Assembly: GCA_905221605.1 (NCBI GenBank) | Contig: CAJNDS010000047.1 | Coordinates: forward strand, 558,001 to 622,000 | DNA length: 64,000 bases | Direction: 5' to 3' | From: Symbiodinium natans | Lineage: Eukaryota > Sar > Dinophyceae > Suessiales > Symbiodiniaceae | Shown: positions 13,283 to 58,499 of the stretch, piece by piece | Numbering within the stretch: the first letter of the stretch is position 1 | How the letters are laid out: every line of letters starts with the position of its first letter | Made by a program: the position numbers and the translations under genes | The notes under the pieces: generated by a model | Told to the model about the DNA's origin: nothing | The model's input: the letters and a program-made list of their open reading frames with translations, nothing else | Database searches by the model: none

Positions 13283-13369
13283 TTGGAATCGGTTCGGTGC
13301 TGCTGCCCATTGGGTGCAATCGTGTTACCGCCAGCTGCTCCCTCTCCCAGGTTGACTTGTTCTGCTGCC

Positions 13370-15553
13370 ATGTCTACTGACAGTCTGCCGGATATAATGG
13401 GGGATGATGGTTCGGTTGGCCATGTCAGCGAAGATGATGGACCACCAGTCCTTCCTATTTCTCACTTGGAGTTGCCTCCCTTTGGGCCTAGTGTGCAGTC
13501 CTCTGGACCTTTGTTCGTTTCGCCAAGGCTGTCGGATGTGGAAGATGATGCCCTAGATTGGGGAGATGATAACTCCCCTGTCTCAGCGATAGATGACTTC
13601 TTGGTTGAAGTCAACCCTGGCATGTCTGAGCTTAGCTCTGAGCATACTTCGTGCAAGTCATGTGTGCGCGACGACCTGCCGAGCCAGTCTGAGGAGCATG
13701 ACGCCTCAGAGGCTGACCCTCAATTGTCTGAGACTGAGAAACTTCCTGTTGACGAGCCCCCGTCAAAAATGGCCCGTACCGTGGGTGATGTGTTCGCCGA
13801 CAATTTTGTGCGTTTGGCGGATGGGGGCATGTCTGATGTTGTTTTGCCTTGGGAGCTGCCTGCTGTCAGTGCAATCTTTGGTGAGTCCTCGGTGTTTTCT
13901 GAACTCAAAATGCCAACCCTTTCAATGCGTGAGACGGGGGTCTGGACCCCTCAGTCGCCTCCGTGTGATCCTTTCGCTTCCTTGGACGAATCGGAGGAGC
14001 CGTTCGTGTCTGGTGACCTCGCGTCCAACGTTTTCAAGGTCCTCTCTGATGTGGATGTTGATGCCCAGCAAAGTAAAGCAGTGAGGCTTGCAGTTGATAA
14101 GTGGATTGTTATCATGCGTAGAAATCGCAAAATGCATCCGGAGTGTGAGGTTGATCCGCTGGCATTGGAGGCGTGTATTGGGTCGAGGGCTGCAGGAACT
14201 GCCTCCAAAAGGGCGGGTAGCATCCTCACGTTCCTGAGGTGGTTTGACACAATTGTTGGTGCCAACCTCGACCCCTTTACTGACGACATGTTTTGGAGGT
14301 ACATGCAGTTCCTAGATGGATCGCAAGCCCCGCCCTCCAAAGCTTCGTCCTTCTTGTCGGCCTTGCGTTTTGCTTACTTCGTGATGGATGTTACTAACAT
14401 CCCTAACAAGCTGAGTCGCAGGTGTGTTGGTGCGGCTGAGCGTATGTTGGCCAACCTTGGGGATCTCAAGCAAGCTCCCCCGCTCACTGTGGCGCAGGTT
14501 CGCACCCTTCATTCACTGTTGCATGGACACAGTACCTCGGATTGGGATCGGGCCTTTGCTGGATATTGTCTTCTGTGCTTATATGCGCGTGCTAGGCAAT
14601 CTGACTTCCGTAAAGTGGCATACGTGGACGTGGATGGAGAGGGTCGTGATGGCTACGTGGTGATCCGAGTCAAGCAACATAAAACTGCCAGGGCAGCCAG
14701 ACGAGTTGCTCAGCTGCTCCCAATCTTGATTCCGTTGAGGGGAATCTCGGACACTGAGTGGTTTGAATCATGCAAGTGTGCCTTTGAGAAAGTTGGTCTT
14801 CTGTTGCAAGGACATGTTGGTGCTGCCCTCTTCCGTCCACCACTGGCCAATGGCGTGCTGGCTCGCAGGGCCATTACGTCGGGGGAAGTTACCGCCTTCT
14901 TGAGGCTCGCGCTTGGTGATAATGTTGTGTCCTCGCACAGCCTGAAAAGAACTTGCATCTCTTGGGCCAGCAAGGCTGGGTCCAAGAAGGAGGTGCGGTC
15001 TTGCTTAGGCAGGCATGTCACAGCTGTCGAAGGAACGGAAGCCGTGTACTCTGTTGAGCTAAGCATGGGGCCCGTGCGGGAGCTGGAAACGGTCTTGGAT
15101 GCCATCAGACAGCTTGAGTTTTCTCCGGATGCAGCCCGGGGACAAATGTGGGCTTTCCCTCCTCAACCGCCTCCACCTGGCGGGCCGTTGCAGAGCAAAA
15201 GTGTGGTGTCTGTTCAGGCAAACTCTGCCGCCTCCTTGGCACCTGCGATCAAGGTTGAAAGCTCAGATGAAGAAGAGTCATCGTCCTCCGATAGTTCGAG
15301 TGAGTCATCAGAGTCAAGTGATTCACAAGCGTCGCGGGGTCCTGTGCGTGTTGATGCCCGTGTGTCTGTTCCCGGTGTGAACCCTGTGCAAGGCACTGGT
15401 ACATGGGTGAAACACTCCAGATCTGGAGTTCTTCATCATGCCTATGGCGACAACATTCTAGTGTGTGGACGTCCGCGCACGGCTATGTATGTCTTGCCTT
15501 CGGAGGAGGATCTGATGAATCCTGAGTGTCGCACATGTAAGCGCAACCTATGA
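13370..15553 (+). CDS. Tyrosine recombinase of YR retroelement 1
   Basis: The frame is open from 13283; ATG 13370 (MSTDSLPDIMGDDG, in GCCATGT context) is the more likely start, giving 727 aa. Numbered from 13283: an acidic, disordered N-terminus to about 230; a core-binding helical domain about 250-400 (TASKRAGSILTFLRWFD); a catalytic domain about 400-610 with YARARQSDF (catalytic Arg near 438), HSLKRT (His 552), GRH (His 578) and VYSVE (Tyr 589). This is the R..H-x-x-K/R..H..Y order of tyrosine recombinases. The tail is Ser/Glu-rich, then has a CGR..CRTC motif shared with the second element, possibly metal-binding. In DIRS, Ngaro and PAT elements the YR integrates a circular cDNA. All catalytic positions are present, so it could be active. 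Confidence 0.75.
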   Translation: MSTDSLPDIMGDDGSVGHVSEDDGPPVLPISHLELPPFGPSVQSSGPLFVSPRLSDVEDDALDWGDDNSPVSAIDDFLVEVNPGMSELSSEHTSCKSCVRDDLPSQSEEHDASEADPQLSETEKLPVDEPPSKMARTVGDVFADNFVRLADGGMSDVVLPWELPAVSAIFGESSVFSELKMPTLSMRETGVWTPQSPPCDPFASLDESEEPFVSGDLASNVFKVLSDVDVDAQQSKAVRLAVDKWIVIMRRNRKMHPECEVDPLALEACIGSRAAGTASKRAGSILTFLRWFDTIVGANLDPFTDDMFWRYMQFLDGSQAPPSKASSFLSALRFAYFVMDVTNIPNKLSRRCVGAAERMLANLGDLKQAPPLTVAQVRTLHSLLHGHSTSDWDRAFAGYCLLCLYARARQSDFRKVAYVDVDGEGRDGYVVIRVKQHKTARAARRVAQLLPILIPLRGISDTEWFESCKCAFEKVGLLLQGHVGAALFRPPLANGVLARRAITSGEVTAFLRLALGDNVVSSHSLKRTCISWASKAGSKKEVRSCLGRHVTAVEGTEAVYSVELSMGPVRELETVLDAIRQLEFSPDAARGQMWAFPPQPPPPGGPLQSKSVVSVQANSAASLAPAIKVESSDEEESSSSDSSSESSESSDSQASRGPVRVDARVSVPGVNPVQGTGTWVKHSRSGVLHHAYGDNILVCGRPRTAMYVLPSEEDLMNPECRTCKRNL

Positions 15554-15940
15554 CGTGTTGTGGCTGGTGGACGTTTGATCGTTTCTGATCGCTGTGATGA
15601 AGAAAAGAGTTTGCTACATGGTAGCGACTTGTGTGCCCAGGGGCTAATGTGAGGCAATGTGGACTGCAGTATGTGCTGTTGCCGGCTAAATGTCGGAGTG
15701 TTGGATTCAAGGCAAGGACATGGTCCCTTATGAGCCTTGTGGCACATGGTGCCAATGCCTAGCCAAGGGGCTTTATAGGCATTAGGGGCCCAGGGGCCAT
15801 GCATGCAACATGAGTGCGGTGAGTTGTGAATGCGATGGTTCAACCCAGGCTCGCAGTAGTAGAAAGCGGACATGTCACTTGATGTACTTTGAAGGCTGTC
15901 GCTTGTCCGTGGTCAAGTTGGTAGTCAGCCGAAGGCCTCG
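15554..15940. other. Spacer between YR and RT genes
   Basis: 387 bp without a motif-bearing ORF, where the second element carries gag and further domains. An internal deletion or a non-autonomous derivative is the simplest reading. Confidence 0.4.
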
Positions 15941-17554
15941 GTGACGGGGCCCCGTGTGCCCGAACATGCTCGCATTTTGCGAGTACGAATCCCTCCAAGT
16001 GTTTCGTGTCCTGTCCCCCTGCGTGCCCGCCTCAAGGACTCCTGGCCCCTGCCACCAGTGGCGGTCTGCCCCGAACGCTCGGTGCCGGCCGAAGCCCAAC
16101 TGCTCCAAGTGGTCCCGGTTAAGCAGGGGAGTTCAAGTGGTGGCTCCGGGGGCAAGGGTTGTAGTGCTGGTTCTGAGCTCTGGAACGAGCTTGTTTGGGG
16201 TATTCCCTTTTCCCCGGAACAGTTTGTCCGTGAGGCAGTCAAGGCTGGTCATCCTAGAACTCTCGAGGTCGCCTTGCCACAGGTTCTCAAAGACGCGGTG
16301 TGCGCCCATGCTTCGATGACTGAGTCGGAGCTGTGCGCGCTGAGGGCGCGACAGTTTGCAAAGTGGCTCAAGCTTGCACAAGACCTCAGAAGTGAGGAAG
16401 ATGCCCTGAAGGCGTCTATGCACAAACAGGTCTCGACGATTCTCAAGCCTAAGCGTCTCCTCTTGTGGAAGGCAATGATGATCGAGGCTTCCTATGATGA
16501 TGTGGCCATCTTTGATGAAGTGATCTCAGGTACTAACCTGGGGGGCCCGGTGCCCGATACAGGAGTGTTCGCTCCGAAGTTCAAGCCGGCGTCGGTCACG
16601 GTTGAGCAGCTCAAAAGAGATGCCCCCACATCTAGGGCAGCCCTGTTGTCCACTATTAAGTCCCAGGGGGAGTCCCTCGATCGCGAGGTCCAAACGAAAA
16701 CCCTTGAGGAGCGCGACAGGGGCTGGTTGTCCGGTCCCATCGAGGTGGACCAGCTGCCACCTGATGCCATCGTGTCTCGAAGGTTTGGGATTGAGCAGGA
16801 TGGGAAGATCAGGTTGATTGACGACTTCTCGGGGTCAGGAATCAATGGCTCCGTCGAGACATTGGAGACTGTGCGTCCCCAGACAGTTGATGTCATTGCG
16901 GGTATGTGCCTGTCTCTGATGCGAGTGCTGCCGGGTTGTAGTCTCAAAGGAAGGTTCTATGACCTGGTCAGTGCCTATAGACAATTGGCACTAGACCCTA
17001 CGGGGGCATGGGCCTCGTACATTGGGTTGTGGGATCCTGACCTGAAGAGGGTAGTAGTGTTCCAGCTTCACGCCCTCCCTTTCGGGGCTGTCAAGTCCGT
17101 GTCAACCTTTCTGCGAGCCGTTAATTCGATCTGGCACCTAGGAGCATCCTTTTTCGCCCTTTGCTGGTCCCACTACTTCGATGACTTTGTGTCGGTGGCT
17201 AAAGGCACACAGGTGGCCAATGTACACCAAACAATCACCTTGCTCTTCGCCTTGTTGGGATGGGACCTCGCCCAGGGTGGGAAGAAGGATGTGCCGTTCG
17301 CCGAGGCCTTTTGTGCACTAGGGGTTGACATAGTTTTATCAAGTGCCCACTTGGGTCGGGTGACTATTTGCAATACGGAGAAGAGAGTGCATCTCCTTGT
17401 TGAGACAATGAAGCAGGCCCAGCAAGACCGGCGTATGAGTGTGCCTCAAGCTCTCAAGCTGAGGGGAAAACTTCAGTTTGCGAGCTACCGGATGAGTGCA
17501 TCGACACCTTCAGTTCACTTGTTGACATGTTGGAAAGCGGCCGCCCTCGATTAG
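15941..17554 (+). CDS. Reverse transcriptase of YR retroelement 1
   Basis: A 537-codon frame. The first 70 residues are Pro/Arg-rich; conserved sequence begins at ELVWGIPFSPEQF. RT motifs in order: RRFGIEQDGKIRLIDDFSGSGIN (fingers), RFYDLVSAYRQLALD (catalytic Asp 341), ALPFGAVKSVSTFLRA, HYFDDFVSV (Asp 414 and Asp 415), LGWDLAQGGKKDVPF, and LRGKLQFA. This is the DIRS/YR-type RT layout, with an YFDD box and an LRGKLQF thumb followed by RNase H. The end overlaps the RNase H frame by 28 bp and lacks the usual linker, suggesting a frameshift or small deletion at the junction. Confidence 0.75.
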   Translation: MTGPRVPEHARILRVRIPPSVSCPVPLRARLKDSWPLPPVAVCPERSVPAEAQLLQVVPVKQGSSSGGSGGKGCSAGSELWNELVWGIPFSPEQFVREAVKAGHPRTLEVALPQVLKDAVCAHASMTESELCALRARQFAKWLKLAQDLRSEEDALKASMHKQVSTILKPKRLLLWKAMMIEASYDDVAIFDEVISGTNLGGPVPDTGVFAPKFKPASVTVEQLKRDAPTSRAALLSTIKSQGESLDREVQTKTLEERDRGWLSGPIEVDQLPPDAIVSRRFGIEQDGKIRLIDDFSGSGINGSVETLETVRPQTVDVIAGMCLSLMRVLPGCSLKGRFYDLVSAYRQLALDPTGAWASYIGLWDPDLKRVVVFQLHALPFGAVKSVSTFLRAVNSIWHLGASFFALCWSHYFDDFVSVAKGTQVANVHQTITLLFALLGWDLAQGGKKDVPFAEAFCALGVDIVLSSAHLGRVTICNTEKRVHLLVETMKQAQQDRRMSVPQALKLRGKLQFASYRMSASTPSVHLLTCWKAAALD

Positions 17555-18061
17555 TGCAGGTTAGCAAGCAACGAACCTGGTATGTTTTCACGGATGCGTC
17601 ATACTCGAAAGATGATCCCACACTGCCTTGCGGCGTAGGTGGCCTTCTGTTTGATGACAAGGGTGTGTTGGTTGCTGGGTTCTCTCATGCCCTTGACAGG
17701 GATGCCCGCAAGCTCTTGGGTGAGCTTAACAAGGACACGATTATAATGGAGGCAGAGTTTGTTGCAGTGCTGCTTGCGTTCCGCCTTTGGGGCAAAAGGG
17801 TTGCGCATTCACCTGTTGTGGCTTTCATCGACAACAATGCGGTTAGGGATATTTTGATTTCCTGTCGGGGCAGGTCCCCAATAGTGAAAAATCTGCTTAC
17901 TATGTTTGTTGGCTTGGAGGTGGGGTGCGAGTTCATCCCTTGGTTCTCACGGGTCCCTTCCCCGTCGAACTGCGCGGACCACCCGTCAAGACTGGTGACC
18001 CAGCAATTGCTGTGGGGTGGCACAAGTGTTCCGTGTTCCGACGTGTCCGAGCACCTGGAGG
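17527..18061 (+). pseudogene. RNase H domain of YR retroelement 1, truncated
   Basis: Residues Asp 23 in YVFTDAS, a Glu in MEAEF, Asp in VAFIDNNA and Asp in NCADHPSR form the D-E-D-D set of retroelement RNase H. The reading continues to about 18061, where the open frame runs into antisense LINE sequence. The natural C-terminus and element 3' end are therefore missing or fused. The frame differs from that of the RT. Confidence 0.65.
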
Positions 18062-18630
18062 TCCGCCGTGTAGGGGCCACCACTAGCATCTGTGCCATAC
18101 ACAAGCTCCGGGTCATTGAGGGCCTCTTTGTTTGCCCATATACCCATAAAGATGGGATTGTCCTCCTGTGGAGGTTGTACCTCCCATTTGGGTTTGGGCG
18201 GGAGGCCCCTGGTCCACAGTGATCTCGGGCCTTGGGCCCTGCCTTCTTGGAACCATGTTGGCAACTCCCAGTTTTGGGCCTCCCACCAGGCACAATCCAG
18301 GAGGACATGCTCCCAATCTGCTTCCTCGTGGCATCGGGGGCACACTTTGACAGCAGAGTTCCGGCTGCAAACCAAGGCACCCTGCCAGACGCACCTCAGG
18401 GCAGCTGCTTTCGTGGTTCGACCTTCTTTCTTGAACTCCCCCAGCAATTTCCTCCCTACCGTCCAGTCGACTCCCTCCTGTAGCTCAGGGGCAGCAAGAC
18501 CAGTGGCGATGCGGTGGTTCACCTCCTTCTGGTAGGTTTGCTGGAGGAGGTCTAAGACACGACACTCCTGCTGTTGATGATTTGCCACCTGCTGCTGGCC
18601 TCTTCCAGCCTTTGGACGGTGAGGCCCCAT
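18062..18630 (-). pseudogene. LINE C-terminal zinc finger and truncated RNase H
   Basis: The minus frame 18630-18062 has VNHRIATGL, then KVCPRCHEEADWEHVLLDCA (C-x2-C..H..C finger, near 18340) and ends with LVYGTDASGGPYTADL, the first RNase H motif. The same finger and motif recur at 12845-12580. The RNase H domain is cut after about 15 residues at 18062. Confidence 0.6.
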
Positions 18631-22941: not shown

Positions 22942-23087
22942 GGCTAAGAGGAAGGCACCTCTGGGCAAACTGTCCTAGGCTGGCTACCAGGCTAGGAAGG
23001 CTGAGACCTCCGAAACTTCCCTCAGGCTACTCCTTGAGCCAACCCAGGTGCAACCTGGCTTCAACCCAGGTTCAACCCAGGTTCAAT

Positions 23088-23470
23088 TTTTTTTCCGAGT
23101 TGAGCGAACAAATGCGATCCACCGTCTTGGTGTTTGGGTTGTGAAAACCGTGCCTCTGTACTGGCACCACTGATGGCCCTCTTGGCCCTAATGTACAGGG
23201 GAGGAAACCACCTCCTCCTAAGCTACCATCCTCTTTGGGATGCTACCAGAGGTTGTACCTCATGAGAGGAAAGAAACCTCCTGGCAAAAGCTCCTCAGGT
23301 TGCTGGTGCAGGAGTTTGCAACCGTGAGAGAAGGGGCCAGGGGTGTTCTCTGGCAGCGAGGATGAACCTCAGCTTGCATCCTCTTCGGGATGCTACCAGA
23401 GGCTGGTACCCCAAGAGAGGTTAGGAACCTCCTGACAAAAGGTCCCTCAAGGCCTTTGGTGCACTTTGTG
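23088..23470 (-). repeat. 5'-truncated LINE copy (3' tail only)
   Basis: A T-tract at 23089-23096, then the same sequence as at 11551-11880: CCGAGTT.., TTGGTGTTTGGGTTGTGAAA, and CATCCTCTTTGGGATGCTAC followed by CAGAGG, with repeated GAGG/CCTC inverted segments that could form hairpins. Orientation (poly(A) on minus at the low-coordinate end) fits target-primed insertion of a short 3' fragment. Confidence 0.55.
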
Positions 23471-23600
23471 CAGGCTGCAACCCAGGTTCAACCTGGGTTC
23501 AACCCGGGTTCAGAACCCGGGTCAGAACCCAGGTTCAACCTGGGTTCAACCTGGGTTGAATCCGGGTTCAACCCAGGTTCAACCCAGGTTCGACCTTTAA
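23471..23600. repeat. AACCCAGGTTC minisatellite
   Basis: About eleven degenerate units of the near-palindromic 11-mer AACCCAGGTTC / AACCTGGGTTC. Shorter clusters occur at 23040-23085, 33700-33745 and 34568-34645. Confidence 0.75.
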
Positions 23601-23805
23601 GCCCCCCTTTAAACCCCCGATAAGCCTCCCCCTTAAGACCCCCCTCACTTCTCTAATTTCGAATAATGAAATCTAAAAAACAAATAGAAAAATAAAACAA
23701 GATTTGAAGGGGGCGGAATTTAGACTAAATTTCCTTCTCTCTCTTCCTGAAGAGAAGGTAATGTTTAAAGTCTCACTTCTCTGGCTTCGAATAATGAAAT
23801 CCAAA
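23601..23805. repeat. Partial unit of the 0.88-kb array interrupted by YR element 2
   Basis: 23711-23803 matches 33749-33841 (AGGGGGCGGAATTTAGAC..., then AGGTAATGTTTAAAGTC). It is the left remainder of an array unit whose continuation lies right of the YR element at 32969. Confidence 0.7.
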
Positions 23806-23811
23806 AAATAA

Positions 23812-24034
23812 GGTACTGGCCCAGAATGGGCAACACCCTTATTTGAAGAAGTGGATTGTTTTGATTGTCAACAAAACAAAGCATGCATGAAGTTTGTTTT
23901 CATCAAACCAAGCATGAATGCACATGATGTGAGTCAACTTTTAAGATTGCTTGACAAGGCATGTTTGAGAGAATACATGGGCATGCTGGCTTTCTCCTCT
24001 CAAGTTTTGAGTGTCAGACGAAAAACATCTTTGA
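23812..24034 (+). repeat. Split repeat A1
   Basis: 223 bp, starting GGTACTGGCCCAG and ending AACATCTTTGA; identical to A2 as far as can be read. Confidence 0.9.
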
Positions 24035-24111
24035 AGCGGGTTCGGGGCCTCGAACAAGGTTCGCAGTAACCGTGGCTCCCTGACGTTTGACCATTAGGAT
24101 CTCCGTGCACG

Positions 24112-26600
24112 TTGGCTCCCGCGGGGAGCCAACAGATGGAGGTGCCCGAGCAGGTTGCCACAGGTATCGAGGCTGCGAGCTCTGCTGAGGATTCCTCCGT
24201 GGGCACTGTGAGCCACCTTGAGTGGAGCCACATTGGCTTGCGTCGCCAGTTCCGTGGTCTGGTGCGAGTGGTGGTCCAGCTTTCTAATCGCCTGGACTCC
24301 CTTGAGTCCCTCTTAGCCTTGGGCTTGCTTTTCGTGCGTGGCATCTGTGCTGCCCAGGTTCCGTTAGGCGTGCAGCATCTCATTTTGAGCATGTCAGACC
24401 TTGAGTACGAGCTTTCTGAGTCGGGCGATGTCAGTGACTTTCCGCCCTGTGCGCCTCTGCCTGAAGAGGATGTGAGCCGCATGTTGCAGGATGCATTAGC
24501 TGAGTTGGGTGCTGCCGACAGTTTTGTTTCGCCCGCGTCTGTTGCCCCCCAGCCGGCTTTTCAGGGGGAGTCTCGGGGCCATGGGGGCATTGCAGTTGAT
24601 TCTTCTGATGCTTCGGGCTCCATTGCACAGGACAGTCATGATTGGCTTTGCGTGGGTGCAGGTTCGCAGGCAGACTTTGTTGTCGCCTGAAGACAAGGGA
24701 CCTAAGCAGTTTTGGGAGACTGGGTTTTGGGGGTCTTTCTTCGGGGAAAATCCACTAGATACAATGTTTCCCGAGTTCGATGCTTCCCGACCTGAAGTGC
24801 CAAATCTTCCAGATTCTCTCGCTGATGATGCGTTGCGGCCTGGAGCAAAGAAGCCTAAAAGTGTAGACACCTCATCTTTTGAATCAGTCGTCAGGAACCG
24901 CAAGGTTTTCTCTTGGCGTGATAAGCGCGAGGTTGAGCATCACAGAGCTTTGATCAAGTGGGACCAGCTTTTCTTCTTGTGGGATGCGAGTGCTGACAAG
25001 CGCATCCAAGAAATCGTTGCAATTGAGCTTGTCACCGAGCGTCATGAGTTACTTGAGGATTATATGGCTAGGAAAGCCCCTGCGACCATGCTGAAGCGAG
25101 CAAACTCCATGCGTAGGCTCACATCTCTTGCGTTGGAGTTGACCTTGATTTTCCCCTTCACGGAAAATGATTTACATCGTGTCCTTCATGTTGCTAAATC
25201 GAGTGGGGCAGCTTTGTCTCAGTTGAGGAGCATCATGGAGGCCATTACTTTCACCCGGTTTACCTTCGACATGGAATCCTTGGATGCCTTGTGTGGAAGT
25301 AGAAAATGTTGGGGAGTAGGAGTGGCACGCCTTGCTACGGTAGTGAGGAAAGCAGATCCCCTGAGAGTTGAGGATCTCCGGAAGCTTCACCAGTTGCTTA
25401 GAGAAGCCCTTTGCCTTTGGACCCGCCTCTTTGCAGGGTGTGCCTTGTACTGCTGTTACGCCCGCTGCAGATGGTCAGACAGCCAGCACATTGACCTCTT
25501 CACCATTGAGACGGACGCGCTCACCCAGCGCCCGGCTTTTCTGTGTGCCGTGATCGATGTTCACAAAACAATGAACCTTAGGGGGAGGCTTCCTGTTCAT
25601 TTGGAGTTGGCGGCTCCCGGGCAAGGAGTGACCGATGATGATTGGGTTTCCCAGTTCATGGAAGTTCGAAACTTGCTGGAGCTTGGGGACGAGCATCCCT
25701 TTATGCCAGCACCAGATCGATCAGGTTTTGCAACCGTAAGAGCGCTTGATGCTGATGAGGCCGGGGATTGGCTTGGGTTGTTGTTGACAAATCGTGTTGG
25801 TCTCCGAACCACTTCGCATTCCCTCAAGTGCACGTGCCTTTCTTTCGCGGCTAAGTTTGGCATAGGATACCAGGACCGACTTGTTCTTGGAGGTCACGCG
25901 CATTCAGGCCGCATGGCCGAGGTCTACGGCCGTGATTCCATGGCAAGACCGCTCAGGTTGTTGGGAGAAGTGCTAAGTGCAATTCGTTCGGGATCCTTTG
26001 TGCCAGATGCGAACCGTGCTGGACGTTTTGTGAATGCAAAGCCCTCAACCGTCTTCATGTCCGAGGAGGGGCACGACTTTTGTCCAGTGTTGAGAGCCTT
26101 CCCGAAAGCCCAGGCTAGCCCTTCTCTTGAGCACTCACATGAAGGCATTGAGGACAAGTCCGCGTCACCGGCTTCCCCCCCAGCACTTACATGAAGGCAT
26201 TGAGGGCAAGTCAGCGTCACCGGTCTCCCCACGCAGTCCATGTACGTCCGTGCTTGAATCCCGAGCCTCAGCTCCGCCCAGTCCTGCAGAGCCCTCAAAG
26301 TTGGCCGATGAGGACAGCGATAGCTCCAATTCCCAGGTTACCTCTTCCAACTCGGAGTCTTCGAGCAGCTCCAGTTCAGAGGACGAAGCTGTGGGGCCTG
26401 TTGGGCCCCTTCCTGAAGCTGGGGATGGGTTTAAGTTCGTTCAACGTAGCAAATTCGGGACGCTGCACTTGCTCCGGAGTTATCACAGCCGATTTACTCT
26501 GTGTGGCCGGAAAATCGCACCTCCTCTTGGAGATCCGGTCAACGTGAAACCTAGGACTTCCGTTTGCAGGACGTGCCGTAAAGCACAGTCCAATGCTTGA
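24112..26600 (+). pseudogene. Tyrosine recombinase of YR retroelement 2, two frame changes
   Basis: The N-terminal acidic region is open at 24112-24690. The frame then shifts near 24660-24690 into the main frame (24509-26194), which has FWETGFWGSFFGENPLDT, a helical core and the catalytic set. Numbered from 24509: Arg 321 in YARCRWSD, His 437 in HSLKCT (the R/K after HSL is Lys 440), His 463 in GGHAH, Tyr 473 in VYGRD. A 52-bp tandem duplication (26138-26189, 26190-26241) shifts the frame again into 26127-26600, which holds an acidic Ser-rich region and the CGR..CRTC tail also seen in element 1. The four catalytic positions survive, but an intact full-length protein needs both frames bridged. 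Confidence 0.7.
26138..26241 (+). repeat. 52-bp tandem duplication in the YR gene
   Basis: CATGAAGGCATTGAGG starts at 26138 and again at 26190; the units differ at a few bases. 52 is not a multiple of three, so the duplication changes the reading frame. Confidence 0.75.
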
Positions 26601-26784
26601 TGTCGTGCAGCACCCGGAGAAAGAGGTTTGCGCGCAAATCACTCGCTGTCACTCGCTTTGCAGCTGATAACATTGCACGTGCTGCATGCCCAAGGATTGT
26701 CCTTGATCAGCTACACGCAACTTGCTGGATACATGCTCAAGCCTTCTTTGGCTGTTAGTGGCTTGTCAGCACGGCCGAGGCAAC

Positions 26785-28065
26785 ATGACCTTGGTTGATT
26801 CAGAAGCCTCCTTCAAAGCGAGGTGCATCGTAGTATGTGGCGATGAAGTCCTTCATGGACAGCTGTGCGCGCATCGGGTCAAGACCTTCAGCGATCTTGC
26901 TTTCGCCTGCGGGACCCCTCAGGCCCCACCAACTGAGGATGAGTTCTCCTTGTTTTGCGACCGCGTGCTTGCGCCCGGGGCTCCAGTGGGCGATGCCGCT
27001 AAGTTGCGCCGACTTCATTTTGAGTCGTCAGCTTATGTCACTGCAAGTCTCAAGGCACAGGTTATGGGCCAGTCCTCCGATGCACCGAAGACCTTGCCTT
27101 TGGCAGAGAAAGTAGCTCGCATAGAGAATCAAAAGCAGAGACTCAAAGGCCTTGTTTTCCAGGAAGAGCTTGAGCCAGCTTATTCCTTGATCGATGCAGT
27201 CGCTCACCAGGTTGAGATAAATCAGCTTTCATGGTTGTCACCCAGCAAATGCCCAAAAAGGGACCAGGAGCTACGCAATAGTGGCCGAGAAAAGAATCGT
27301 GTCCTGACTCTTCAAGAAAATCAGGTTGCACTTGTTCCCGTGGCAGATCAAATCACTGCTCATCACGCTACCCCCTTGGAGGTCCAGTGGTGTCTCCAGC
27401 GCCGGGGATTGGCGTATGATCTCAATCAGGTGATCTCGTGGGAAGCCCATGAAAGTTGGGTCTCATATCTCATGCAGCACTTGACGAGGCCTGCTCCTCC
27501 CAATTACGCGCAGGTTGGGATAAGCCAAATCCTCAAAGCCGATTGTGAGTTGTTCCTTTTGATGTCGAAGGAGGTGACCCAAGTCCGCGCTTCTTCCTCA
27601 GGGGCCATGGAGGCGGACCAGGCACTCCGCAAATTGCGCTATGATCCACGCATCACAATGCACTTGCTTCCCTTGCCAAAAGGGCAGGCCGCGCCCCCGG
27701 CTACCAATGCAGATCCCGATTCTCCTCCGCCTGGTCGGGGTACGAAGCGATTGAGAGGGAGTCAAGGTGGCCTCCTTGCTCCTGTCAAGACCGCCACCTT
27801 GCCCAAGGAGTTGCAGGATTGCCCGCACCTCACTTTCACCGACAACCGTCGGCTCTGTTGGGGTTTTAATTGCAATGGATGCCAGGCCAAGACTGATGGT
27901 AAAAACCCCCCTGCGTGTAACCGTGGTGTGCATGCCTGTGCTCGCTGCCGCAAGCCCGGTCATGGTGCCAAGAAGTGCTGGTTTAATCCCGCAAATAAGG
28001 GAAAAGGGGGTGGTGGTGGCAAAGGTCCTCGTACTGGCAAGGGCCAAGGTCAAGCCGTCGAGTGA
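26785..28065 (+). CDS. Gag-like protein with CCHC zinc knuckle
   Basis: The frame is open from 26722; ATG 26785 (MTLVDSEASFKARC) is chosen because the conserved part starts there, giving 426 aa. Residues after the start include FSDLAFACGTPQAPPTEDEF and LRRLHFESSAYVTASLKAQV, a helical capsid-like region, and a Pro-rich linker. Near the end the zinc knuckle CARCRKPGHGAKKCW (C-x2-C-x4-H-x4-C) is followed by a Gly/Lys-rich tail. This is the layout of a nucleocapsid protein. The stop TGA (28063-28065) is followed in the same frame by the polyprotein, with no frame change and no other stop, so readthrough could make a Gag-Pol fusion. Confidence 0.7.
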   Translation: MTLVDSEASFKARCIVVCGDEVLHGQLCAHRVKTFSDLAFACGTPQAPPTEDEFSLFCDRVLAPGAPVGDAAKLRRLHFESSAYVTASLKAQVMGQSSDAPKTLPLAEKVARIENQKQRLKGLVFQEELEPAYSLIDAVAHQVEINQLSWLSPSKCPKRDQELRNSGREKNRVLTLQENQVALVPVADQITAHHATPLEVQWCLQRRGLAYDLNQVISWEAHESWVSYLMQHLTRPAPPNYAQVGISQILKADCELFLLMSKEVTQVRASSSGAMEADQALRKLRYDPRITMHLLPLPKGQAAPPATNADPDSPPPGRGTKRLRGSQGGLLAPVKTATLPKELQDCPHLTFTDNRRLCWGFNCNGCQAKTDGKNPPACNRGVHACARCRKPGHGAKKCWFNPANKGKGGGGGKGPRTGKGQGQAVE

Positions 28066-31000
28066 CAAACGCCCGCTGCTGCTCGCGTGATTCCGCTCTT
28101 GGATCCCGAGCAGCCCAAGGGCCACAAAAGAGCAAGCACCGGAGAGATACTCTCAGGCAAGCCTGTGTTGAGTTCTTCTCCTGGTTCATCTTCCCATGAT
28201 GCCTCTGCGAGTTCGCATGATGGCTCTGTTCGCACCGCGCTCAGATCCTTTCGTTTCGAGTCTTGGTGTGAGCACAATTTTTCTTCTGAGCTTTCAAAGC
28301 CCGAATCCTTTGCAGCGCAGTTGTTGCAGCAAGGTTCTTGCAATGGGACCGATCTCTTGCATTTGTCACACTTGTTGCCTGTCGAATCTAAGTCCAGGCA
28401 CTCAGCAGATTCCCTGGACGGTGGGAGCTTTCTCACTGGGGCCTACCGTCATGGCGGTGTCGCTGGGGCCAGAAAATCTTTAGCTGAGTTTCCCCTCACC
28501 TCCCGCCTTCTTGTACAGCTCGCTACTCAGCTTTTTCCGGGAACCACTTTTTCCACTGTTGCGCTTTTTCGCAACCTGCGAACCCCACGACATTCAGATA
28601 GCAATAACCTCACCGGCTCATGCAACCACGTCGCGGCTCTGACCAGCTTCTCAGGGGGAGGCATCCGTGTGTATCAGGGCCCAGAGCCAGAGGACCTCAC
28701 GTTTGGAGCATCTGGCGTCCTTAGCTTTGATGCGCATTTCGAGCATGAAACCTTGCCTTGGCGGGACGGGGACCGCCTTGTACTTGTTGCCTTCTCCGTT
28801 GGCTGCTTGTCGAAGCTCTCCGCTTCCTGCCGTGCCTCGCTTCTGGCGGTTGGGCTGCCCTTGCCACAAGAGCCTGCTGCTGCCCTTCCGGGCCTCACAA
28901 CCGGGGAGCCAGATTTGGGTCTGTGTCTTGAGGTGTTTTCCGGCACGGCCCGGTTGAGCGTTGCCTTGCAGGATGTGGGTTTTCAGGTCTTGGCTTTTGA
29001 TCATAGGGCGCGTTCCACCTTCCCAACCCAGCAGCTTGACCTTACCATACCCGACCACCAACAGGTGCTGTTTGACATTGTCAACGATAATGCTGCCCGC
29101 CTGCAGCATATCCATCTGGCTCCACCATGTGGAACTTGTTCAGCCGCCCGTGGCATCCCCATTCCGGAGTTTGCAGAAGCTGGCCTTTCCCAGCCTGTCC
29201 CCTTGCGCAGCGAGGCCCACCCTATGGGTCTACCCGGTTTATCAGGCTCTGATTGGGACCGAGTCCAGTCAGCAAACATCTTGTATGAGTTCTCCTGTAA
29301 ACTGGTGCGTTTGGCAGTGTCGCTTGGCGTTGGCATTTCCATTGAAAATCCCCAAAACTCCTGGTTTTGGTGGTTGCCGCCAGTTGTGGCGTTGCTCCAA
29401 GACATCAATGGCCACGAGACTTCTTTCCACGCTTGCATGCACGGAGGTTCTCGCGACAAGTTGACAAAGTTGTGGTGTTCCGATGATCGTTTTGCTCCGC
29501 TCCAGGCTCTGTGCAGTCGAGACCACAAGCACGCGCCCTGGCGTCCGCGCCTGCTTGATGGAAAGGTCAACTTTCCGACGGCTGCTGAAGCTGCTTATCC
29601 TGTCTTGCTGTGTCAGAGAATGGCTGAACTCGTTGCTGCAATGAAGCGTGCCTTGCCGCCCCAGGCTTCCTTGTTTGGTCCCGCTCCGCAGAAATTGCGC
29701 CTCGCCTTGGAGCGCCAGCCTCGGCGGCGGCGTCCTCTTGTGAGCATGTATACAGCCTACGATGCATGGGCCGTTCCCCTGGAGCTGGCCGAGCCGGTCC
29801 ACCGCCTTCTCAAGTGTTACCCCAAAGGTGCTCGAGTCATCAGACGGCAGCTTTGCTCATGGGGGCAGGTTCGGGCGGCCGTCTGTCCCAAAGTTGAGGA
29901 GGATCGGCTGAAGCAAGTTCTGACTAGCGCTTGGACCTGGTGCACCACACTTGATGCCGAGCCTAATCTGCCTGTCGAAGATTCGATGTCCTCGTTTGAG
30001 GTTTGTGGGATGTGCTCACCTTCAAACTTCGTAGAGACAGCAGAGATAGTCTGGGTAGGAATTCCGAGGGAGCCAGAGGACTTCTTGCAACAAGCCGTGA
30101 AAGTGGGCCATCCCAGGAGGATGATCACTTCTGATGAGGACCCCACATTGACGACGTTACTTGAAAATCTCCTTGCGCCTAGATTGGATTGCCGAGACAA
30201 GGGAACTTCCTTGCTGGAAAGGTGGGAGCAGGAGAAAGAGCAACTTGCGCATGAAGAGGAAAGAGTGATGTCCTCTTTGGACCCTGTGGTAGCAACTGTC
30301 CTTGAAGGGAAGTCCACCGTCCTACTTGACCGGCTGTTGCAGGAAGCCCAGTATCCGGATGTGGATCTGGTGGAGGACATCAGACAAGGTTTCCCTTTGA
30401 CTGGCTGGATGAAGAACACAAACGTCTTTGTTCCTGACCCAAGGCCACCCAAGGCCACCTTGTCGTCTCAGCTCAGTTCCGCCTCTGCAAGGAACCGAGC
30501 TACCTTGGCAAAGGTTGCTTCGACCGTGAGTGACGCCACTGCGATAGCCACTTGGGACGAGACCCTCCAGGAGCTTGAGAAAGGTTGGATCTTTGAGGAC
30601 GCAGACGTTGACTTGGCATCTTGCCTCATTGCGCATCGCTTTGGCGTCTGCCAGGGATCCAAGGTTCGGGTTATAGACAATGGTAAAGCTTCTGGAATCA
30701 ACCAAACGGTTGGGTTGCAGGAGAGGTATAGGCTGCACGGGGTTGAGTTTCTTGCTGCTCTTTTAACGAAGGCCCTAAGTGACCCTAGGTCCAAAGGAGC
30801 GGTGATCGAAGGAAAAACGCTTGACTTAACTTCGGCTTACAAACAATATGCAGTTTTGCCTTCGGACAGAAGTTTGTTCCGCATTGCAGTCATGAACCCC
30901 TCGACAAGGGAGGTGCACATCTATGGCCCATGCTCTTTGCCCTTTGGCACCACTGGCAGCGTCTCCGGATTCCTTAGGACCGCGGCAGCCACCTGGTTTT

Positions 31001-31392
31001 TGGGTTCGGCTAGGGTAGGGCTGGCATGGTGTAGCTATTTTGACGACTTTCCGCTGTTAGCTCTCAAAAGCTGCACTCACCAAGCGGACGGTTGTGCAAA
31101 GGCCCTGTTTGATTTGCTGGGAATCAGGTTCGCCCGTGAAGGTAAGAAGGCTGTACCCTTCAGCTCAACCTTCAAGGCGTTGGGCCTCTTGTTTGACTTG
31201 TCAAAGTTTGGAGAAGGAGAAGTCGTAATTCGGCACACAGATGAACGGATCAAGGAGCTCCATGCGTCGTTGAGTAAAGCATTGGAGGCAGACAAGTTGA
31301 CGCCTGCCGAGGCGGAAAGCTTGAGAGGGAGGCTGCACTGGTTCTGCTCTTCCTTTTCGGCCGTAGGCCTTGTCATGCCGTCAGCACTCTGA
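28066..31392 (+). CDS. Polyprotein: 2OG-Fe(II) dioxygenase-like, cytosine methyltransferase-like, reverse transcriptase
   Basis: Open from just after the gag TGA; the first start-like codon is GTG 28087 (numbering from there, 1101 residues). About 115-245: a double-stranded beta-helix pattern with RHSD (His 169, Asp 171), FSGGGI, FEHETLPWRDGDR (His 220, Arg 230 ten residues on), the HxD..H..R set of 2-oxoglutarate/Fe(II) dioxygenases. About 275-520: LEVFSGTARLS (SAM-binding loop), LAPPCGTCS (PPC with Cys 348), SIENPQNSW (ENP at 420-422) and GGSRDKLTKLW, in the order of cytosine-C5 methyltransferases. About 660-1100: the RT with RFGVCQGSKVRVID, LDLTSAYKQ (Asp 913), SYFDDF (Asp 986 and 987) and LRGRLHWF. 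Predicted roles: modify or unmodify cytosines in the element or target DNA, plus cDNA synthesis. The RT is certain, the methyltransferase likely, the dioxygenase a motif-based inference. Confidence 0.75.
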   Translation, partial: QTPAAARVIPLLDPEQPKGHKRASTGEILSGKPVLSSSPGSSSHDASASSHDGSVRTALRSFRFESWCEHNFSSELSKPESFAAQLLQQGSCNGTDLLHLSHLLPVESKSRHSADSLDGGSFLTGAYRHGGVAGARKSLAEFPLTSRLLVQLATQLFPGTTFSTVALFRNLRTPRHSDSNNLTGSCNHVAALTSFSGGGIRVYQGPEPEDLTFGASGVLSFDAHFEHETLPWRDGDRLVLVAFSVGCLSKLSASCRASLLAVGLPLPQEPAAALPGLTTGEPDLGLCLEVFSGTARLSVALQDVGFQVLAFDHRARSTFPTQQLDLTIPDHQQVLFDIVNDNAARLQHIHLAPPCGTCSAARGIPIPEFAEAGLSQPVPLRSEAHPMGLPGLSGSDWDRVQSANILYEFSCKLVRLAVSLGVGISIENPQNSWFWWLPPVVALLQDINGHETSFHACMHGGSRDKLTKLWCSDDRFAPLQALCSRDHKHAPWRPRLLDGKVNFPTAAEAAYPVLLCQRMAELVAAMKRALPPQASLFGPAPQKLRLALERQPRRRRPLVSMYTAYDAWAVPLELAEPVHRLLKCYPKGARVIRRQLCSWGQVRAAVCPKVEEDRLKQVLTSAWTWCTTLDAEPNLPVEDSMSSFEVCGMCSPSNFVETAEIVWVGIPREPEDFLQQAVKVGHPRRMITSDEDPTLTTLLENLLAPRLDCRDKGTSLLERWEQEKEQLAHEEERVMSSLDPVVATVLEGKSTVLLDRLLQEAQYPDVDLVEDIRQGFPLTGWMKNTNVFVPDPRPPKATLSSQLSSASARNRATLAKVASTVSDATAIATWDETLQELEKGWIFEDADVDLASCLIAHRFGVCQGSKVRVIDNGKASGINQTVGLQERYRLHGVEFLAALLTKALSDPRSKGAVIEGKTLDLTSAYKQYAVLPSDRSLFRIAVMNPSTREVHIYGPCSLPFGTTGSVSGFLRTAAATWFLGSARVGLAWCSYFDDFPLLALKSCTHQADGCAKALFDLLGIRFAREGKKAVPFSSTFKALGLLFDLSKFGEGEVVIRHTDERIKELHASLSKALEADKLTPAEAESLRGRLHWFCSSFSAVGLVMPSAL

Positions 31393-31997
31393 ACAAGCGT
31401 GCCAAAGCGAGTGAGGGATGTCTCTCGTTGGACCCTGATCTTAAAGATGCCCTGGCATACCTAAAGGACAAGGCGCTGTGTGCCCCGCCGTTGAAGTTGA
31501 CTGCAGACTTCAGGCGCACCTTTTACATCTTCACGGATGGAAGCCTTGAGGACTCTTACGCGGGGTTGGGGGGAATTCTCTACGACTCCCTCGGATCTCC
31601 TCTTGCGTTCTTCTCGGGAACAGTGCCTGAGGACGTTTTGAGTGCTCTGAGAAAGCAATCTTCGCATCCAATCTATGAGGTAGAGCTGCTCGCTGTGTGG
31701 GTCGCCATGACCTTGTGGGAGTCCGCCTTGTCGGATGCCTACAGCGTTTGTTATCTCGACAATGAAGCGGCGCAAGGGGCTTTGATAGCCTGCAAGTCGT
31801 CTACGTTGGCTGGGACTGCAATTGTCCGTGACATCCTTGACCTTGAGGATAGGTGCCGTTGTCGTCCTTGGTATGGGCGAGTGCCATCTCACTCTAACCC
31901 TTCAGATCCTCCGAGCCGAGGTGATTGCGCTGCTTTGCTTGGGGCAGGATTGATGGCCAGCTCTATGCCTGTGGAGTTCCCTGATGTTGGGAGTTAG
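31393..31997 (+). CDS. RNase H domain of YR retroelement 2
   Basis: In another frame than the RT. Overlapping sequence upstream of the RT stop reads FGRRPCHAVSTLNKRAK in this frame, so a -1 shift around CCTTTTC (about 31353) would fuse RT and RNase H. The core has YIFTDGS (Asp), YEVELLAV (Glu), VCYLDNEAA (Asp) and NPSDPPSR (Asp), the D-E-D-D set. It ends at TAG 31995, 45 bp before repeat B1. The domain removes RNA from the RNA:cDNA hybrid. Either a programmed frameshift or a recent indel separates it from the RT. Confidence 0.7.
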
Positions 31998-32042
31998 AGG
32001 GGTCACATGTCGGGTTGCTCCCAAGAGCTGCGTCTTCTCTAA

Positions 32043-32379
32043 GGGGGATGATCGGGCATGCTCTTGTGTGGATGGTCCATCGTGGTGTAGCAGGCATTGC
32101 CAGTTCCCACGTGGCCTCTGCAGTGCACAACAAAAGACCGACTCTGACCCCTTTGCCTTTTGGAAGAAAGCAAATGAGCGAGTGAGCGTCATCATGTTTG
32201 TTTGGGATCTCAAGTGATGAATCTTCAGGATGGATAGTTTTGTGAACCTTTCTCAAATAGATTCTGTCATTGGATTCCAATATTTCATATGCTGACGTTC
32301 AAGCATTGGGAAATTGCAAGTTTTAATTTCCATGAGCCATCGCATACGTGATGTGAGTGTTGCATGCGGTCCACAAGGC
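32043..32379 (+). repeat. Split repeat B1
   Basis: 337 bp starting GGGGGATGATCGGG; one difference from B2 (G versus A near 32167/32750). It ends at core hexamer AAATAA 32380-32385. Confidence 0.9.
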
Positions 32380-32385
32380 AAATAA

Positions 32386-32608
32386 GGTACTGGCCCAGAA
32401 TGGGCAACACCCTTATTTGAAGAAGTGGATTGTTTTGATTGTCAACAAAACAAAGCATGCATGAAGTTTGTTTTCATCAAACCAAGCATGAATGCACATG
32501 ATGTGAGTCAACTTTTAAGATTGCTTGACAAGGCATGTTTGAGAGAATACATGGGCATGCTGGCTTTCTCCTCTCAAGTTTTGAGTGTCAGACGAAAAAC
32601 ATCTTTGA
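32386..32608 (+). repeat. Split repeat A2
   Basis: 223 bp, copy of A1. A 17-bp C-rich linker (32609-32625) joins it to B2. Confidence 0.9.
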
Positions 32609-32625
32609 CCCACCCACCCACGCCG

Positions 32626-32962
32626 GGGGGATGATCGGGCATGCTCTTGTGTGGATGGTCCATCGTGGTGTAGCAGGCATTGCCAGTTCCCACGTGGCCT
32701 CTGCAGTGCACAACAAAAGACCGACTCTGACCCCTTTGCCTTTTGGAAGAAAACAAATGAGCGAGTGAGCGTCATCATGTTTGTTTGGGATCTCAAGTGA
32801 TGAATCTTCAGGATGGATAGTTTTGTGAACCTTTCTCAAATAGATTCTGTCATTGGATTCCAATATTTCATATGCTGACGTTCAAGCATTGGGAAATTGC
32901 AAGTTTTAATTTCCATGAGCCATCGCATACGTGATGTGAGTGTTGCATGCGGTCCACAAGGC
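32626..32962 (+). repeat. Split repeat B2
   Basis: 337 bp, copy of B1; followed by AAATAA (32963-32968) and the interrupted array sequence. Confidence 0.9.
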
Positions 32963-32968
32963 AAATAA

Positions 32969-34560
32969 AGCAAGATTCGAGGGGGGTGGAATTTAGAGTA
33001 AATCCCTTCTCTCATCTTCTTTCAGCCCCCCCCCCCCTTGTGACCCCCTTCAAGCCCTCTTCAAGGCCCCCTTCAAGCCTCCCTTTACGCCCCCTTTAAG
33101 CCCCTTCAAGCCCCCCTTTAAGCCCCCCCTGAAACCCCCCCTTAAGCCCCCCTTAAGCCCCCCCTTAAGCCCCCCTTAAGCCCCCCCTTAAGCTCCCCCT
33201 TTAAGCCCCATTTAAGCCCCCTTTCCCCGCCGTCCCACCCCCAACCCCCCCGCTCTTTACTTCTTAACACAAAAACAATCTCGTCTCTACTCCTCTGAGT
33301 TTTGAACATGAAATACAAAAACAAAACAAGATTTGAGGGGGGTGAAATTTAGACTAAAGTCCTTTCTCTCTTCTCCCCTCTTTCCAATTCACAACAGGCA
33401 AAATGGGGGGGGCTGCGCCCCCCCCAACCCCCCCGCTCTTTACTTTTAGAAACAACAACTGTCTCGTCTCTACTCCTCTGATTTTCGAATAAGGAAATAC
33501 AAAAACAAAAGAAGATTCGAGAAATTCGAGGGGGGTAGAATTTAGAATAAATTCCCTTCTCCCTGCTCCTCTGAGTTTTCGAAGAATGAAATACGAAAAA
33601 CAAAAGAATATTCGAGGGGGGTGGAACTTAGAATAAATTCTCTTCTCCTCTTTTTGCTTTAAGAAACAAAAAACAGTCTCGTCTCCTTTCAAGATTGAAC
33701 AACCCAGGTTCAAGCCAGGTTCAACCCAAGTGCAATCCAGGTTGAAGGGGGCGGAATTTAGACTAAATTTCCTTCTCTCTCTTCTTGAAGAGAAGGTAAT
33801 GTTTAAAGTCTCACTTCTCTGGCTTCGAATAATGAAATCCAACAAATAAAACAAGATTCGAGGGGGGTGGAATTTAGAATAAATCCCTTCTCTCATCTTC
33901 TTTCAGCCCCCCCCCCCTTAAGGCCCCCCCCTTCAAGCCTCCCTTTACGCCCCCTTTAAGCCCCTTCAGGCCCCCCTTTAAGCCCCCCCTGAAACCCCCC
34001 TTAAGCCCCCCTTGAGCCCCCCCTTAAGCCCCCCTTAAGCCCCCCCTTAAGCTTCCCCTTTAAGCCCCATTTAAGCCCCCTTCCCCGCCGTCCCACCCCC
34101 AACGCCCCCGCTCTTTACTTCTTAAAACAAAAACAATCTCGTCTCTACTCCTCTGAGTTTTGAACAATGAAATACAAAAACAAAACAAGATTTGAGGGGG
34201 TGAATTTAGACTAAAATCCTGTCCCTCTTCTCCCCTCTTTCCAATTCACAACAGGCAAAATGGGGGGGGGCTGCGCCCCCCCCCCCCCCCCCCCCAACCC
34301 CCCCGCTCTTTACTTTTGGAAACAACAACTGTCTCGTCTCTACTCCTCTGATTTTCGAATAAGGAAATACAAAAAACAAAAGAAGATTCAAGAATCTTCG
34401 AGGAGGTAGAATTTAGAATAAATTCCCTTCTCCCTTCTCCTCTGAGTTTTCGAAGAATGAAATACGAAAAACAAAATATTCGAGAAGGGTGGAATTTAGA
34501 ATAAATTCTCTTCTTCTCTTTTTGCTTTAAGAAACAAAAAACAGTCTTGTCCCCTTTCAA
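32969..34560. repeat. Tandem array of about 0.88-kb units rich in CCCCTTAAG
   Basis: Two units offset by about 881 bp (CAAGATTCGAGG at 32971 and 33852). Each has a C-rich part with repeated CCCCCCTTAAGC, then poly-G/poly-C runs and repeated GAATTTAGAATAAAT.. segments. The array extends left of the YR element to 23690. No gene is supported. Confidence 0.75.
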
Positions 34561-34651
34561 GATTGAAAAACCCAGGTTCAAGCCAGGTTCAACCCAAGTT
34601 CAACCCAGGTTCAACCTAGGTTTCGAATTGAACCCAGGTTCAACCTGAATT

Positions 34652-35594
34652 CTCTCTCTAGGGGAGGTGTTCCAGTTCTCTGCTCTGTGGTGGCTACAGG
34701 CCTGGTTATGAGAGATGTATGAGAAGTATGCATTTCAAGAGGCTGTCGATTCTCGGGCCTACGGCCCGGAGCTCGAGCAATCGAAGGGGTTCTAGAAAGC
34801 TTGCAAAACGGGATTTCGCGGCTGCTTCGAAGCTGCATGCCAAACAGCTATCGAGCTGCTCGCCGGCAGCTCACGAGCTGGCAAGGGAATTTTCGCAAGG
34901 ATTTGTCAGTCAAATTGGCTGACAGATCAGTCGCAGGTCCCAGCATCCATGAGCTGCAGCCCAGCAGCTTGCGAGCTGCATGCCCAACAGCTTTCGAGCT
35001 GCATGCCCAACAGCTTTTCGAGCTGCACGCCAAACAGCTTTCGAGCTGACTGCCGAGCGCTTTCGAGCTGATTGCCAAACAGCCTCGAAGCCTCCACTAC
35101 GCCTCGCAGGCGCTCCGAAGCTCCGCCCCTCTTCAGACGTGCGCGCCAGCGCGCGAAGCGCGCAAAGGTCCGCTCCCCAGCAGCTCGCGAGCTGACGAGA
35201 AACAACTTTCGAGCTGCATGCCACACAGCTCGGCCTCGATGCCTCGTAAGCCTCAATGCCCAGCAAGCTTCAATGCCCGGCCTCTATGCCTTACAGGACT
35301 TCCGCTTCGATGCCTCGCAAGCATTCCGAAGCTCCCGCTCAGGGCGCAAAGGTCCGCCCCCCAGCAGCTCGCGAGCTGACTTGCGCTCCGAAGCCCGCCG
35401 CGCGCGATGCATCCGCTCTCGAGTCGCTGCGCGGCTGTTTTGCAAGCACTTTAAAGCCCCTCCGATTCCCAGCTCTGCAGCCTCCAGCCGGCAGAATCGA
35501 CAGCCTCTCGAAATGCATAAGTCTCATCGATCTCTCATAACCAGGCCTGTAGCCACCACAGAGTGGAGAACCGGAACACCTCCCCTAGAGAGAG
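34652..35594. mobile_element. Foldback/MITE-like element with 102-bp inverted ends
   Basis: 34652-34753 and 35493-35594 are inverted copies of 102 bp with eight mismatches by eye; outermost sequence CTCTCTCTAGGGGAGG. The 740-bp interior is built of degenerate AGCTTTCGAGCTGCATGCC-type repeats, themselves rich in AGCT palindromes. There is no transposase ORF. Target duplications are unclear. A non-autonomous DNA element or foldback element is likely. Confidence 0.7.
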
Positions 35595-58462: not shown

Positions 58463-58485
58463 GGCTTCGGTCCCGGATGCACAGT

Positions 58486-58499
58486 GTGCTCCGCTACCA
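58486..58499 (-). promoter_or_regulatory. Candidate primer-binding site of copia element 1
   Basis: TGGTAGCGGAGCAC directly after the 5' LTR; its complement ends in CCA as a tRNA 3' end would. The same 14 bases follow the LTR of copia element 2 at 61614. Confidence 0.6.

Follow-up and report, generated by a model that had tools for sequence, protein, structure and literature searches.

A tyrosine-recombinase retrotransposon of Symbiodinium natans with predicted TET/JBP-like dioxygenase and cytosine-C5-methyltransferase-like domains ahead of its reverse transcriptase

Anatomy and reading frames of the element

A stretch of 64,000 nucleotides from the dinoflagellate Symbiodinium natans (contig CAJNDS010000047.1, positions 558,001 to 622,000; hereafter the window, whose own numbering is used) contains an insertion of 9163 bases (23806–32968) delimited by direct repeats. 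All features of this element lie on the forward (+) strand, and in its Pol frame two predicted base-modifying domains, a TET/JBP-like 2-oxoglutarate (2OG)/Fe(II) dioxygenase and a cytosine-C5-methyltransferase-like domain, precede the reverse transcriptase (RT). A previous sequence-only reading had assigned the Pol frame (28066–31392) to a tyrosine-recombinase (YR) retrotransposon; the coordinates of the frame were right, and the element itself turned out to be much larger.

The left end, which opens with AAATAA, is formed by the terminal direct repeat A1 (229 nt, 23806–24034), showing 0 mismatches against the internal repeat A2 (229 nt, 32380–32608). The internal repeat B1 (343 nt, 32043–32385) overlaps A2 by the 6 nt AAATAA and is identical at 342 of 343 positions to the terminal repeat B2 (343 nt, 32626–32968), the right end of the element, which closes with AAATAA. 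The resulting order, A1, open reading frames (ORFs), B1, A2 and B2, is that of the split direct repeats of DIRS/Ngaro-like tyrosine-recombinase retrotransposons, and AAATAA, found at both outer ends and in the B1/A2 overlap, constitutes a short core site in common with the circle junction. When the flanks were fused via a single AAATAA, they matched a tandem copy of the repeat around the element that has no interruption (near 33742–33917), an empty-site paralogue; given this and the AAATAA at the ends, insertion took place at AAATAA without target-site duplication. The near-identity of the repeats suggests that the insertion is recent. The element is, by its DIRS/Ngaro-like anatomy, a tyrosine-recombinase retrotransposon, and its reading as a LINE or a copia element was ruled out by the split repeats and the lack of a duplication at the site. 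Tandem repeats, C-rich and AACCCAGGTT-type, flank it at 23023–23850 and 33000–34660, and the empty-site paralogue is one of their copies.

The first frame, ORF 1 (24509–26194, 561 aa as listed), encodes a putative tyrosine recombinase, similar to the corresponding ORF of other elements: by tblastn it matched the N-terminus of the related protein P0030 (2e-12) and, elsewhere in the window, the YR-like ORF of the second element described below (1.5e-30). The YR assignment of the sequence-only reading finds support in the split repeats, in the uninterrupted paralogue of the insertion site and in this upstream ORF, although ORF 1 itself gave no Pfam match up to E 10, phage-integrase family included, and its recombinase catalytic residues were judged by eye. 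The tail of ORF 1, ending in CRTCRKAQSNA, seems to run on in a different frame (26127–26600), and the ORF of the second element closes with the similar CRTCKRNL. Downstream, a Gag-like ORF with a C-terminal CCHC-type knuckle, recognized by eye (26722–28065), shares the frame of Pol, from which it is separated by one TGA (28063–28065); in the relatives P0002–P0004, Gag and Pol are fused as one protein.

The Pol frame (28066–31392) encodes, in this order, the 2OG oxygenase, the C5 methyltransferase, a linker and the RT, and is open to its final stop, with 1108 open codons, whereas the longest open run seen when this stretch was shuffled 200 times by mononucleotide was 261 codons. Within it, the listed ORF (28087–31392, 1101 aa), from which residues are numbered here, begins with GTG. 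The first ATG of the frame, at 29224, lies inside the methyltransferase, and therefore a separate Pol start would need a non-ATG codon. As had been read from the sequence, the FSGTARLS, APPCGT, ENP and YFDD motifs all fall within this single frame. The RT (30364–31371, YFDD at 31036–31047) was assigned through Pfam RVT_1, matched by 10 of 14 family members at E up to 0.1 and by this copy at 0.27 only, and through the alignment of the family profile to the Ty3 RT-RNase H. The RNase H region (31389–31997; Pfam RT_RNaseH_2, 0.0022, below gathering) lies in a frame different from that of Pol in this copy, unlike P0002, where RT and RNase H are joined. This copy may be defective, use recoding or bear assembly errors. 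A segment between methyltransferase and RT (Pol 653–759, 30043–30363) is common with the second element (tblastn, 1.5e-9). A spliced-leader pattern gave 0 matches, and neither Rfam at gathering scores nor the tRNA scan found any feature.

Two predicted base-modifying domains

The TET/JBP-like 2OG-Fe(II) dioxygenase (Pol 111–245, 28417–28821) was delimited with the family profile, Pfam Tet_JBP, a predicted model and fold searches. Structure prediction, named beforehand as a possible refutation, gave for Pol 46–265 a double-stranded beta-helix 2OG fold (pLDDT 87.5, pTM 0.84), with NgTET1 and TET2 in the top rows of the structure searches, where other 2OG enzymes, AlkB/FTO folds among these, tied with them to within 1 Z. 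The Pfam Tet_JBP family (PF12851) matched this copy at 4.1e-4 (20.0 bits, under the gathering score of 34.9); 6 of 9 members matched it at E up to 1, and none of 3 further relatives did. An alignment of 9 sequences has 21 invariant columns, and residues H169 (28591), D171 (28597), H220 (28744) and R230 (28774) each occupy one of them; with all 135 positions given equal weight, the chance of this is ~4.5e-4. Together with F236, these four residues are invariant in the 16 covering rows (2 of 18 profile rows are gapped), whereas N174 recurs in 15 of 16, P0020 having T instead, and N180 in 17 of 17. The 18 profile rows behind these counts come from 17 proteins, which include this copy and the members of the profile itself.

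CcTet binds its metal through His326, Asp328 and His376 and 2OG through Arg385, and the base stacks on its Phe391, whereas residues matching its Gly331 (hTet2 Asn1387, NgTet1 Asp234, CMD1 Asp350) contact N4 of 5-methylcytosine (5mC) (PMC11040006). By spacing only, R230 and F236 correspond to Arg385 and Phe391, the latter being the stacking aromatic six positions behind the arginine (R+6), and N174 to Asn1387, the base-N4 contact three positions behind the aspartate (D+3). The domain thus resembles NgTET1, TET2 and CcTet in fold and in how its metal-binding, 2OG-binding and two base-contacting residues are spaced, but when structurally aligned to NgTET1 and TET2 it has a sequence identity of 12–18%, and sequence searches of the PDB with the polyprotein and with alignments A2 and A5 of the family gave 0 matches. 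Two other assignments were considered. AlkB enzymes carry the second Arg of an RxxxxxR motif at R+6, where Phe stands in 16 of 16 rows here, and AlkB membership was rejected. One of the 9 members matched Asp_Arg_Hydrox (PF05118) at E 0.0068, and AspH structures appeared in the Foldseek list; this family was set aside on the HxD present in the 16 covering rows, the fold alone leaving it possible. Among the PHROGs, only two unnamed families matched the oxygenase (E 0.22 and 0.34), each through a single one of the 9 members. It is strongly supported, on sequence and model, that Pol carries a TET/JBP-like 2OG/Fe(II) dioxygenase with a predicted catalytic function.

Directly behind it, the cytosine-C5-methyltransferase-like domain (Pol 278–523, 28918–29655) was delimited with the family profile, PHROG 757, a model and fold searches. 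The predicted structure of Pol 263–558 (pLDDT 86.5) has a C5-cytosine methyltransferase fold, and the best 50 fold matches listed were all of this class. The motif IV catalytic Cys (C348, 29128) is present in 28 of 29 covering rows, being Gln in P0002, and the motif VI Glu (E420, 29344) in 29 of 30 (D in P0010), with G286 of motif I in 28 of 28 and the motif VIII-like R456 in 30 of 31. The phage family PHROG 757 was the strongest named profile (12 of 16 members), whereas Pfam PF00145 matched 1 of 16 at E 0.08, short of its gathering score; we use the label C5-methyltransferase-like because the fold and the catalytic residues are there while that score is missed. When the methyltransferase profile was compared with PDB sequences, DNMT2 came out best (E 0.0062 over motifs I–IV). 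In PADLOC, several type II methyltransferase profiles gave matches, of which the best was hit by 3 of 16 members at up to 4.3e-4. From NCBIfam, a RiPP methyltransferase family alone came up, in 2 of 16 members (E 0.07 at best). A tblastn of the P0030 methyltransferase piece against phage records found no match, though PHROG profiles match. The counts with PF00145, PHROG, PDB, NCBIfam and PADLOC rest on alignment A4 (16 rows), which omits P0002, the protein that lost the Cys; the conserved-residue counts, unlike these, take it in.

With the catalytic domains of M.HhaI, DNMT1 and DNMT3, this domain has in common the fold and motifs I, IV (PC), VI (EN) and the VIII-like GGxRxK. It differs in that motif VI reads ENP, being ENV in those enzymes, and in that a short region stands in the place of the target-recognition domain. 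This region, behind the methyltransferase motifs (Pol 476–523, 29512–29655), holds a conserved segment with C...HxHxxW and a tail with YP...LC, which are not known as features of ordinary C5 enzymes and possibly represent either a metal site or a target-recognition part in reduced form. The presence in Pol of a cytosine-C5 methyltransferase beside the dioxygenase, both ahead of the RT, is strongly supported, its activity being predicted.

The six active-site residues, H169, D171, H220, R230, C348 and E420 (plus N421), lie where the sequence-only reading had placed them, and both active sites are conserved near-completely in the aligned rows. The assignment of both domains is supported, the two fold predictions named beforehand as possible refutations having both turned out in its favour, and their reading as chance patterns was ruled out by this conservation and by the folds.

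Relatives of the element and other features of the window

Two protein searches recovered at least 14 and at least 19 proteins, queries included, and at least 31 different ones in all, and an oxygenase-only search added at least 3 further relatives; 8000, 7999 and 8000 candidates were scored, and the numbers of relatives are lower bounds. The named sources among the 31 were Symbiodinium CCMP2592, CCMP2456 and KB8, and Cladocopium goreaui. Out of the 31 proteins, alignment A2 (not to be confused with the repeat) took 12 rows, A3 24 (this copy counted), A4 16, and A5 and A6 9 each. No relative was confirmed in IMG/VR, which was scanned with Pol and with A4 and A5.

When 31 rows were placed in an RT tree, those with the oxygenase fell into two separate, well-supported clades, one formed by P0001–P0004 (100/99) and the other by P0023 and the P0005 group (100/100), and in both there are proteins with the methyltransferase directly behind the oxygenase. 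In this tree, 15 of the 31 rows are labelled as unknown for the oxygenase, many of them because their ORF starts at or near the methyltransferase; P0020, labelled so, does have the oxygenase, and sits within the second clade, which leaves the picture unchanged. Long branches leave the deep joins unsure, and the tree includes no named DIRS reference. The oxygenase is absent from P0030 (Gag followed by methyltransferase) and from P0024, and the second element of the window has neither domain. Because the pairing is present in two separate RT clades, it would be either old or made twice, each part having probably been lost, or initially absent, in some elements. In P0031, an extra insertion between methyltransferase and RT (residues 431–515) matches PHROG 464 (2.8e-15) and PHROG 24867, and this protein carries a precomputed Pfam PF14216.

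The second recombinase-type element of the window, older than the first, extends over 12652–18387 and includes a YR-like ORF (13283–15553), an RT ORF (15941–17554) and an RNase H region up to ~18021, with 184-nt repeats (12652–12833 and 18204–18387) that are 89.7% identical. In addition, an ORF at 7650–8663 encodes a chaperone-of-endosialidase domain (Peptidase_S74, E 4.9e-8), which is most familiar from the tail spikes of phages, and large ORFs occupy the minus strand at 50076–61384. Among the latter, the ORF at 50076–52466 matches the copia-type RT family RVT_2 (E 1.2e-11), and those of 2060 and 933 aa had no Pfam match at E 0.001.

Possible roles of the two enzymes

A YR element with an accessory base-modifying domain is a known kind; the enzyme pair, the methyltransferase lineage and the presence of a TET-like domain in a retroelement look new. 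The closest system, SymbioDIRS-Dnmt3 (de Mendoza et al. 2018, PMC5890265), is also a dinoflagellate DIRS-like element with A-coding-B-A-B repeats, a separate recombinase ORF and a cytosine methyltransferase within the Pol ORF together with the RT. However, its methyltransferases were found via PF00145, near-absent here, with the DIRS ones falling in the Dnmt3 clade, and the present element has a TET-like oxygenase as well; the term TET occurs 0 times in the main text of that paper. According to the same source, DIRS elements make complementary DNA (cDNA) prior to insertion, and a SymbioDIRS methyltransferase, which can methylate CG sites de novo, is considered likely to act on that cDNA.

Mobile elements encoding a TET/JBP dioxygenase, argued to serve the fitness of the element, are described among fungi, in this case in DDD/E and Helitron DNA transposons, and this 2025 study states that no retrotransposon with such an enzyme was found (PMC12730594). 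Among the titles and abstract openings listed in searches of the open-licence PMC literature, none described one either, which does not prove priority. Phages modify their own genomes with C5-methyltransferase, TET/JBP enzymes and glycosyltransferases (PMC12730594), that is, the same two enzyme types on one mobile genome, encoded there as separate proteins and here in one frame with the RT; the methyltransferase here resembles PHROG 757, and a Pfam scan of 16 pieces of the window matched no glycosyltransferase. Finally, orchid Ty3/Gypsy retrotransposons have also added a 2OG oxygenase, but it is an AlkB-type eraser of N6-methyladenosine (m6A) in RNA encoded in an additional ORF, and their abstract mentions no methyltransferase (PMC9289625).

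The best explanation, to which we give about an even chance, is that this YR retrotransposon carries both enzymes to act serially on its own cDNA, a serial action that we infer. Made in one polyprotein with the RT, they would travel with the replication complex; the methyltransferase would convert C to 5mC and the dioxygenase would oxidise it to 5-hydroxymethylcytosine (5hmC) or further. The cDNA circle inserted by the recombinase at AAATAA would thereby be chemically marked, and the mark might serve to avoid host silencing or nucleases, or to pass as self DNA, as in phages with the same pair. Two observations bear on this reading. At the position of the O2 contact (R+8; Arg393/His1904/His297), assigned by spacing, the domain has V238 and the family I, V and S in 8, 7 and 1 of 16 rows, with no His or Arg, in contrast to NgTET1, TET2 and CcTet; because of this, we claim for the domain that it works like TET/JBP enzymes and not that it belongs among them, and in part for the same reason its substrate is kept open. 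Moreover, the loss of the catalytic Cys in P0002 and the lack of oxygenase in P0030 and P0024 show that the two activities are not obligately coupled. A broader version, tentative and in our view rather doubtful, is that a complete two-step pathway from C to 5mC to 5hmC or beyond is fused to the RT and modifies the cDNA circle before insertion, a phage-style genome disguise, possibly of phage or viral origin, dinoflagellate-wide and overlooked since neither domain reaches Pfam thresholds.

Among other explanations, the dioxygenase might only remove or oxidise 5mC placed by the host, with the methyltransferase in a separate job such as cDNA marking or copy-number control. P0002, which retains the oxygenase beside a dead-looking methyltransferase, fits this, as does the proposal that fungal transposon-borne TET/JBP enzymes counter silencing or hypermutation (PMC12730594), but two domains that adjoin in one frame and stay together in two distant clades make it unlikely. 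An action on the genomic RNA of the element, by one or both enzymes, has a precedent of demonstrated activity in the orchid elements (PMC9289625), and is favoured by the tie of AlkB/FTO folds with TET in the structure search and by the match to DNMT2, Dnmt2 being a tRNA methyltransferase (PMC5890265). This appears improbable, as the family has Phe at R+6 in place of the second Arg of AlkB, and Pfam gave Tet_JBP and no AlkB family at the thresholds used. Comparably improbable, although it deserves attention given the share of 5-hydroxymethyluracil (5hmU) in dinoflagellate thymine, is that the dioxygenase makes 5hmU so that the cDNA resembles dinoflagellate nuclear DNA, 5mC being added independently. 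This base replaces 12–70% of dinoflagellate thymine, with enzymes of the TET family cited as those likely to make it (PMC6723414), thymine is hydroxylated by JBP, which belongs to this group (PMC12730594), and the O2 contact usual in 5mC-oxidising TETs is missing here; however, N174 corresponds by spacing to the TET2 residue touching N4 of 5mC, and sequence cannot tell the substrate.

That both folds were captured solely as nucleic-acid-binding or structural modules would agree with the Cys lost in P0002, but if there were no catalysis it would be hard to see why the catalytic residues are kept almost throughout, and we consider this reading very unlikely. Hardly credible is a fossil or an artefact, in which a gene-model or assembly error fused unrelated frames: the TGA between Gag and Pol, the frame change before RNase H and the lack of a Pol-frame ATG before 29224 could be taken in this sense, but the domain order is the same in records of other strains, and the terminal repeats are nearly identical.

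Retrotransposons with a methyltransferase and transposons with TET are each known separately, and we found no report of both in one retroelement in the literature searched; our results also suggest that surveys based on PF00145 undercount methyltransferase-bearing elements. If active, this would be an element that writes and rewrites its own DNA marks. It would provide two enzymes that can be cloned, from a lineage whose DNA bases are modified to an extreme degree, and would open to direct tests both where the base modifications of dinoflagellates come from and the arms race between elements and DNA methylation.

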